A stretch of 64,000 nt of DNA from Orbaceae bacterium ESL0727 (lineage in GTDB: Bacteria > Pseudomonadota > Gammaproteobacteria > Enterobacterales > Orbaceae): NCBI GenBank assembly GCA_029433345.1, contig JAQTHY010000001.1, positions 1,116,001-1,180,000 on the forward strand, in the 5' to 3' direction. Both the position numbers and the translations under genes were made by a program. The notes beneath the pieces were generated by a model that was given only the letters and a program-made list of their open reading frames with translations, was not told the DNA's origin and did no database searches. This document shows positions 23,824-35,647 of the stretch, in pieces (position 1 is the first letter of the stretch; each line of letters begins with the position of its first letter).

Positions 23824-23947
23824 AAAATCTCCTCATCATCATTGAAGTTATCGCAATCATCCTTTAAGGCTGTTACCGCTTAACGAGCGGGCAGTTATCA
23901 AGTTTGGTTTATCTTAAAGGGGAATGCATCTATTTTAAAGCAAAGCA

Positions 23948-24071
23948 CTATTTATTTATGGGGAACTCTTTATTTATGGCGAACTATTTATGGTGAACTA
24001 TTTATTCATAACAAACTATTAATGAAAAACTATTAATCAAGTACTATTCATGAAAAACAATAAACGAGGAA
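23948..24071. repeat. Degenerate tandem repeats (TTTATGG-GAACTA type)
   Basis: About eight related 14-18-bp units, such as TTTATGGCGAACTA, TTTATGGTGAACTA and TTAATGAAAAACTA, run through the 410-bp gap upstream of the alpha-galactosidase. They lie between its start and a likely -10 (ATTATA at 24098-24103, TATAAT on the sense strand), so they would form part of a long 5' leader. Confidence 0.7.
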
Positions 24072-24153
24072 CCAAAAATACATGTTATAAGTAGAGTATT
24101 ATAAACAGAGTATTATTAATAGAATAACCGCAACACGATCATGGATAATGGTA

Positions 24154-33753: not shown

Positions 33754-35290
33754 TTAAGGTGTTACGCAGGCGAAAATATTATTATTAGTATAATCGAGAT
33801 CTATTGCACCATCCATGCTACCAACAGCAATGAATTTATTGCCTGAACTTATCTCGATAGCTCAATATGAGTGGGTACGTGTATATGAGGGGCTAAAGTC
33901 ACTATCTATATAAGAATACGACACGTTCTTTATTGCTCCCCATTCTGCAAATAACCCTCCACCAATTTTACGTTTATAAGACCAATCCGTGCTGCCGCCA
34001 GGATTTGCAGCCCACCCCAAATCCTTATCAGGTCCTGCAAATGTTATTTGCCCATTGCTATATTCCCTTACTCTAGGAATACGATAACGGTTTCCATAGT
34101 AAGTTGCACAGAAATCAGCCTTGTAAGGGCCTTGATGAGCAGGACTTGAGATAAACCATTTACCGATATAAAAACTGTAGAATTTAGTTTTTGTTGTGCC
34201 TGTACCTGAGTATAACGTAAAAGTGGTTGGTACGGCAGTTTCTGCAGTCGTATAGGTCGCTTCAGTTGGTCCTTTTAACGTTATTTTGGTGTTAATCAGC
34301 GTTGGATTATCCGGTTCTTCGGTAGAGGGTTCTATCGTTAAACTGAGACCTGAATCTGTGGGGAATTTTTCGTAACTTATCTTCCCTAAGGGACCCGCAA
34401 CGGTTAAATTGAAAAACAGATTATTTGCCCAATTGTAGGGAAGTTAGAGGATGGCATAGTGATATTTTGTGGAAGAAATCCAGACTCTTTATACCATTGT
34501 GTCTCATCATAATTATCCGACCACATGATATTGGGTTGGACATAACAGGTTAAGGGCCCTGTTAATTTGGGTTTTATGTAATAAGTTATGGTGGAACCGG
34601 CGAAATTACTACTTCGAGGTATACCATATTGAGTACTCAGTTCACCACCATCACTGGTGAGTGTGATTTGGTAAGGTGCGTGACACGGATCTAATCTTGC
34701 CCCATGATTTGCAAAGATATCACCATACACATCTTTTATTTCGACGGTAATATTCCCCGTCACAATGAGCCCATCTGACCCTTCCCCGTCGCCATTATTA
34801 TCATACCAATAATTATTATTACGAATTGGTGTGCTTAAATCAGCTGTATTGGATGTGACAGGAACAGGCATTTGGACATCATGTAGCGTTTGATCTACAA
34901 CAGGCAATTCCATCGGTGTTGCTTCTGTACATTGATTGTTAGTTGGCGTGCACATTTTACCATCAGACAGTTTTAATGTGAGCAAAGGGGCGGTATCTGG
35001 TGCTTGCGTCACCCCATTATCAAAAGTCAAATAAGGCGCTTGACCTTCTATTGCACGTGAGGTAATCGCAGAGAGTGCTGCTTGCACTGTCAACGGCATA
35101 AAAAATAGTGTTATAACAGATAATCGGAAAAATAGAGAATAAAGGGATTGTGTTACGTGGTGTGATAAAAATAACGACCAAAAATCATTTTGTTTGCTTG
35201 TTTGCTTGTTTGCTTGTTTGCTTGTTTGCTTGTTTGCTTGTTTGCTTGTTTGCTTGTTTGCTTGTTTGCTTGTTTGCTTGTTTGCTGCAT
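33754..35290 (-). pseudogene. Broken, repeat-switched surface/adhesin-like protein gene
   Basis: The start I propose is ATG 35290, with AAAGGAA at 35298-35304. It is followed at once by 12 copies of AGCAAACA (sense strand). With 11 or 14 copies the frame would run MQQTSKQANK..., then a signal peptide (SLYSLFFRLSVITLFF, MPLTVQA). The body would begin LSAITSRAIEGQAPYLTF. With the 12 copies present it stops at 35153-35155. The downstream frame is open 35099-34404 and then shifts, because one C seems lost from CCC at 34438-34440. It continues YNWANNLFFNLTVAGP ... YRIPRVREYSNG ... KIGGGLFAEWGA, meets TGA at 33862-33864, probably in place of a Trp codon, and reads on to FACVTP at 33754. The C-terminal pattern (YRIP-RE, GGLFAEWG, ACVTP) resembles large secreted or invasin-like proteins of Providencia and relatives. 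That similarity is from memory. Domain function is unknown. Confidence 0.75.
35191..35286. repeat. (TGTTTGCT)12 octanucleotide tract
   Basis: Twelve perfect, uninterrupted copies of TGTTTGCT (96 bp) run from 35191 to 35286. The sense strand for the neighbouring gene reads AGCAAACA, and all three frames through it lack stops. It begins one base past the proposed ATG 35290-35288. Because 8 is not a multiple of 3, gain or loss of a unit changes the downstream frame. Confidence 0.98.
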
Positions 35291-35483
35291 TATACGGTTC
35301 CTTTATTCCTTTGCAACTTAATTTCTGTTAACACTTATGGAAATTATTTCGTTATTTTAATGCTAAAAATAAAAAACGTAAGTTTTATAGGCGTCTTTTT
35401 TGTAAAGATTTGTAATTTTTCAGTTAGTTAGATAAAAAGATCGTTTAAATTAAAGTTGTAGCATTAATGTTAAGCATAAACTT

Positions 35484-35519
35484 AAAATTTGACATAAACG
35501 TAGTGTAGTTCTAAAACAT
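35484..35519 (-). repeat. Dispersed repeat, form A (copy 3)
   Basis: On the minus strand it reads ATGTTTTAGAACTACACTAC then GTTTATGTCAAATTTT, most similar to the copy at 41689 (both have TGTCAAATTTT). It lies about 195 bp upstream of the repeat-switched gene, in the same orientation. The rest of 35291-35817 holds an A/T-rich promoter-like region and the terminator below, with no gene seen. Confidence 0.88.
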
Positions 35520-35647
35520 CATCATAAAAAAATGATAAAAAGTGATTGGATTTTTAAATTCTTGCCATTTTTATGCGGTGTAATTACTCACAAGCAGATA
35601 GCCATTTTTCTCGATAAGATAAGAGATTCATTTGAAGAATAATGCAT

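Follow-up and report, generated by a model that had tools for sequence, protein, structure and literature searches.

The perfect 12-unit AGCAAACA array on the minus strand of the window (the 64,000-nt stretch of Orbaceae bacterium ESL0727 DNA that was analysed) is, in our assessment with good confidence, a translational phase-variation switch in one gene of a large Gilliamella/Orbaceae family whose members are predicted to be exported adhesins; with 12 units it would stand in the OFF frame. This reading is based on family comparisons: most relatives without an array start in frame, relatives with an array are mostly out of frame, near-identical paralogs lie one unit apart, and the leader between array and signal peptide looks coding-like. 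Replication slippage would lengthen or shorten the array in steps of 8 bp. With 11 or 14 units, translation initiated at ATG 35290 would continue through the array, the leader and the signal peptide into the mature protein; with 12 units it would end after 45 codons. From these comparisons we infer slippage in living cells, unit-dependent expression, a surface location and an adhesive role. The mechanism proposed in the first-pass annotation is likely for the family; for the window copy, the annotation was right about the switch and not about a working product.

Array, reading frames and interruptions in the window gene

The features of the window gene are listed below.

35298..35304, minus strand: AAAGGAA, ribosome-binding-site-like in sequence, 7 nt above the ATG
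35288..35290, minus strand: start codon ATG, not in the exported-protein frame when 12 units are present
35191..35286, minus strand: array of 12 perfect AGCAAACA units, from sequence
35153..35290, minus strand: short frame from the ATG at 12 units, 45 codons and then the stop at 35153-35155
34404..35327, minus strand: open frame across the array, leader, signal peptide and N-terminal mature part, with its stop at 34404-34406
35079..35150, minus strand: signal-peptide-like hydrophobic segment (approximate ends, judged by eye)
34404..34443, minus strand: region where homology passes between reading frames, through damage or assembly error
33865..34443, minus strand: C-terminal part in a second frame, 47% identical to residues 312-472 of the relative P0013
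33862..33864, minus strand: in-frame TGA before a conserved C-terminus, from sequence

The order of AAAGGAA, ATG 35290 and 12 perfect units, as first annotated, agrees with the sequence, and a single base separates the ATG (35290-35288) from the first AGCAAACA unit. The tandem is perfect (12 x 8 bp), its unit length is not a multiple of three, and TRF placed it at 35190-35286 with 12.1 copies and a 100% match. The frame arithmetic was also right: the distance from ATG 35290 to the frame of 35099 is 191 nt (remainder 2), which is out of frame at 12 units and leads to the stop at 35153-35155. Recomputation joined the ATG and the exported-protein frame at 8, 11 or 14 units, as had been proposed, and likewise at 5 and 17. 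All frames through the repeat are indeed open, the AGCAAACA unit containing a stop codon in no phase.

The exported-protein frame is open from 35327 to 34407, and its first ATG occurs only at 35099, inside the hydrophobic stretch; the mature start was placed by homology at about 35078. Translation from ATG 35099 was rejected, since this codon lies in the hydrophobic core and array-free relatives start upstream, with their in-frame start at the same place as ATG 35290. Ribosomal frameshifting in the array was also rejected, as units such as TGGCATC show no slippery run by eye. By comparison with homologous in-frame starts and from the coding-like leader, the array lies within the translated 5' end. 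At least four consecutive AGCAAACA units were found only at the window locus among the 60 genomes searched, the window genome included, and the array is the longest of the six (units of 5-12 bp, at least 3 copies) detected in the window plus 400 kb of control stretches from the same genome. Being the sole such locus and the longest of the six, the array is, by these counts, more than a chance occurrence. Elsewhere in the window, degenerate tandem repeats of 14, 18 and 32 bp cluster at positions 23947-24116.

As assembled, the window copy is interrupted twice, by a frame change within 34404-34443 and by the TGA at 33862-33864, past which a conserved-looking C-terminus follows. Its N-terminal part (34404-35099) matches residues 95-313 of P0013 with 45% identity. 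Since the frame is broken twice downstream in the assembly, the switch of this copy would control a truncated product only; in frame, the gene would yield a protein some 300 residues long, lacking the predicted adhesive tip. The proposal of a slipped-strand switch of an exported protein thus stands for the mechanism, by family comparison, and fails for the full product at this locus. Comparison also supports the K/Q/N-rich extension suggested to precede the signal peptide, as the segment from array to signal peptide behaves like coding DNA. Intact family members are present both in the window genome and in relatives. Decay is common in the window genome, where at least 400 codons after the mature start are kept by 10 of 20 usable members, compared with 195 of 211 in other genomes.

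Family distribution and census of 5' arrays

The gene does not stand alone as a switch locus: it belongs to a family of dozens of copies. Its 231-residue N-terminal part has 31 matches in its 2.15-Mb genome, some of them fragments, with 20 usable 5' ends. Family matches were found in 31 of 35 genomes of the genus, including the window genome, and a search with an intact 543-residue paralog detected members in 41 of the 44 family-level genomes, from 4 of 5 genera. Judged from these matches, the window gene belongs to a large and so far unnamed Orbaceae family. Named relatives come from Gilliamella apis, G. apicola, G. bombi, G. bombicola, G. mensalis, Gilliamella sp. wkB178, Orbaceae bacterium ESL0721 and Orbus hercynius; wkB178 (G023) and ESL0721 (G004) were counted in the genus of the window genome. 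Gilliamella-type bacteria are a group known from bee guts. The named ones among the 120 relatives listed are annotated as hypothetical or uncharacterized proteins, except for one DUF1566 label, and several relatives are annotated from a start within the signal peptide. Owing to these uninformative names and starts, strain comparisons may have overlooked the switch. A search of open-licence papers found no description of the family or of phase variation in Gilliamella. The window genome also encodes a 1,556-codon frame with repeated domains (C1:1005034-1009689), which carries 8.4 copies of AAAGCCAA and is out of frame.

For the census, 239 family 5' ends were located in 30 genomes and 231 were used, after removal of 5 with short upstream sequence and 3 internal repeats of the 1,556-codon-frame member. 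The stretches were chosen among the matches listed, leaving aside about 10 weaker G006 matches and a few in other genomes, and 11 genomes were represented by one locus each. Arrays were counted when perfect, of at least 2.9 copies and inside the frame leading to the mature protein; those with imperfect copies were counted as array-free. Of the 231 sampled 5' ends, 129 had a perfect array preceding the signal peptide (7-bp units in 119, 8-bp units in 10), with 29 distinct units in the family. Paralogs of one genome carry different units, namely 6 units in 6 arrays in G005 and 6 in 12 in G032. Copies that are perfect within arrays, together with units that differ between paralogs, suggest turnover inside each array. 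Among the 102 members without a 7- or 8-bp array, three from G006 (C1:1261203, 1263219 and 1979978) have 19-21 copies of the 4-bp unit GCCA.

The segments from start to mature protein (60.8 kb) contained 138 arrays, compared with 26 in the other fetched DNA (1,269 kb), a density about 110 times higher, and some of the 26 outside arrays seem to lie at the margins of family members. Most outside arrays (22 of 26) likewise have units of 7-8 bp, so a frame switch cannot be argued from unit length alone. In the window genome, 8-bp arrays of 4 to 13.6 units are also intergenic (C1:324896, 494555, 1321701, 320344 and 1387745; loci L070, L073, L084 and L085). Several of these intergenic arrays adjoin an interspersed element of about 40 bp (TTTGACATAAACGTAGT.TAGTTCT.AAACAT), which occurs at positions 35480-35548 of the window and has at least 41 matches in its genome, its own copy included (40 of 142 candidates scored). 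A TTTAC-N5-TTTAC motif was observed above 65 of the 231 members in sense orientation and above 1 in antisense; 36 of the 65 are in G023, where it lies about 170 nt above the array, and 400 kb of control sequence held 4 sites on both strands.

Frame states, the leader and competing explanations

An ATG with a Shine-Dalgarno-like site just before the array was found in 127 of the 129 array genes. The 102 array-free members comprise 69 with such an ATG and site in frame, 8 with an in-frame ATG alone and 25 with neither, several of the latter having about two units or damaged 5' ends. Of the 127 array genes, 10 are in frame and 117 out of frame, and 107 of these 117 keep at least 400 open codons (106 of 115 in the genomes other than that of the window). 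For genomes with at least 4 switchable genes, the in-frame genes number 2 of 4 in the window genome, 3 of 13 in G004, 0 of 6 in G005, 1 of 6 in G006, 0 of 9 in G022, 1 of 35 in G023, 1 of 16 in G026, 0 of 14 in G030 and 1 of 12 in G032. The 35 array genes of G023 are the most in one genome among the matches listed.

The three frames are occupied 4/8/7 by arrays of at least 5 units (n=19), a spread consistent with the prediction of free slippage. Of the arrays below 5 units (n=108), 6 are in frame, 101 share a single out-of-frame register and 1 occupies the other; this bias is not predicted by free slippage and counts against the switch reading. The bias may reflect gene conversion, common descent or culture conditions that select against expression. 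Five of the six short in-frame arrays, from five genomes, have 4.43 units, and the sixth (G026, 3.14 units) does not reflect a whole-unit change. The short out-of-frame arrays have 3.3-3.9 units, with one exception of 4.0, which places most out-of-frame genes one added unit from ON. Furthermore, among the pairs listed, unit number differs between near-identical paralogs. A G032 pair is 97.9% identical over 900 nt and has a 7-bp gap as its sole gap, giving 2.43 and 3.43 units. A G006 pair (95.1% identical, gaps of 7 and 1) has 3.43 units out of frame and 4.43 in frame, and three ESL0721 relatives carry 18, 20 and 23 CCACGCAA units, their alignments showing 16- and 24-nt gaps besides smaller ones of 6 and 1.

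In 95 nearest-neighbour pairs, gaps in multiples of three made up 49 of 83 in the leader (the other 34 were not), 30 of 61 in the mature part, 1 of 44 upstream and 8 of 48 in unclassified 5' parts, and array gaps corresponded to whole units in 17 of 21 cases. For 90 out-of-frame genes of seven genomes, aligned in the chosen frame only, pN/pS ranged from 0.50 to 0.79 in the leader and from 0.36 to 0.61 in the mature part. By these measures the leader looks translated and coding-like.

A promoter-based explanation, in which the array sits at the very start of the mRNA, just downstream of a sigma-70 promoter, and acts through its length on transcription or mRNA stability instead of the reading frame, draws on the start region of the relatives, which resembles a TTGACA/TATAAT promoter, with such hexamers directly before the array in many of them. 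All 109 members with an ATG 12-30 nt before the array have Tyr as third codon (TAT in 97, TAC in 12), and all 109 also fit the hexamer form TAnnnT, so the coding pattern of the start region does not by itself dispose of this explanation. In the window gene, TTGCAA-16-TATAAT, the only promoter-like match nearby, overlaps the ATG with 10 of 12 matches, a point against the translational switch. Against a promoter stand the 2.8 matches that shuffled sequences gave in the same scan and, in some relatives, an upstream TTGCAT-16-TATACT visible by eye. Such an arrangement would leave most genes without an ATG, since an in-frame ATG occurs in only 52 of 127 leaders and at least 25 codons before the mature start in only 5, although an in-frame GTG or TTG at that distance is present in 37 of the 127. 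As leaders mostly lack an ATG and look coding-like in gap lengths and pN/pS, and as array-free members use the same ATG in frame, the array was rejected as a promoter element, and we regard this explanation as very unlikely.

Slightly less unlikely is that the window gene is decaying, its array a relic, and that arrays of the window genome expand neutrally. The double interruption of the window copy, the 10 of 20 usable members of its genome without 400 open codons and the 7-8 bp arrays between its genes fit such a history; the preservation of long frames elsewhere, also among out-of-frame members, the concentration of arrays at family 5' ends and pN/pS below 1 in out-of-frame genes speak against it. 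Least probable is that out-of-frame genes act as silent donors recombining into expressed array-free copies, with the array secondary. Array-free in-frame members do occur beside many out-of-frame ones (11 and 15 in G026, for example), and the register shared by most short arrays would suit donors; nevertheless, nearly all array genes keep their own ATG and Shine-Dalgarno-like site, in-frame members with 4.43 units occur in five genomes, and arrays are perfect while their units differ between paralogs.

Protein architecture, known systems and implications

The predicted fold of P0013 combines Ig-like domains with a lectin-like C-terminal tip, and the tip of the mature protein is predicted to be invasin/intimin-like. 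This tip resembles the C-terminal domains of invasin and intimin (PDB 1cwv and 1f00) in predicted fold, while neither the PDB (E up to 1) nor Pfam gave a sequence match. Inverse autotransporters of the intimin/invasin type have an N-terminal membrane beta-barrel, and the Opa fold is a membrane barrel. In the model, the N-terminal region does not look like an intimin-type membrane barrel, and the Ig/lectin-like fold predicted for the Orbaceae family differs from that of Opa.

The closest parallels are found in other repeat-controlled genes. In Neisseria opa, a CTCTT pentanucleotide in the 5' signal-sequence region sets the frame at 9-12 loci, and gonococcal opa genes are in frame less often than chance would give (mean 1.7 against 3.4 expected), a bias of the same kind as that of the Orbaceae family and milder (PMC13183285). 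Both are multigene surface-protein systems, predicted as such in the Orbaceae, with a 5' repeat setting the frame at several loci per genome; the Orbaceae family differs in its 7- or 8-bp units of 29 kinds, its long leader and its up to 35 array genes per genome. Opa membership was rejected, as the units are of 7 or 8 bp (4 bp in the three G006 members) and not the CTCTT pentanucleotide. Escherichia coli K1 neuO shares a heptanucleotide array in the 5' coding region (AAGACTC, 3-53 units), on whose number translation depends; it is a single phage-borne O-acetyltransferase gene (PMC13001214) and not a secreted multigene family. In Haemophilus influenzae, CCAA repeats in several hgp paralogs are likely surface-protein switches, which is the point of likeness, whereas most units in that species are of 4 bp and the hepta- and octanucleotide arrays of hmw lie upstream, in the promoter region (PMC2651432). 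The vlhA genes of Mycoplasma gallisepticum likewise form a large adhesin-like family with a repeat at each gene, but their control is transcriptional, through a promoter GAA repeat active at 12 repeats (PMC6258824). By analogy, the Orbaceae family would combine Opa-like logic and neuO-like unit size with another type of protein and higher numbers.

Most known phase-variable multigene surface families come from vertebrate pathogens, where antibody escape is the usual explanation. Our judgement is evenly poised on a broader picture, in which each genome of Gilliamella-type bee symbionts would carry dozens of intact adhesin genes with lectin tips; of those with arrays, almost all would be silent exactly one unit from expression, with one or a few ON at a time, on a scale exceeding gonococcal Opa and in an insect host without antibodies, while in some lineages the arrays would have grown to 12-26 units and run freely. 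In bee-gut commensals, a family this large would call for a different driver, for which host glycans, strain competition or phages are candidates. Since Gilliamella can be cultured and put back into bees, the question of the driver is testable.
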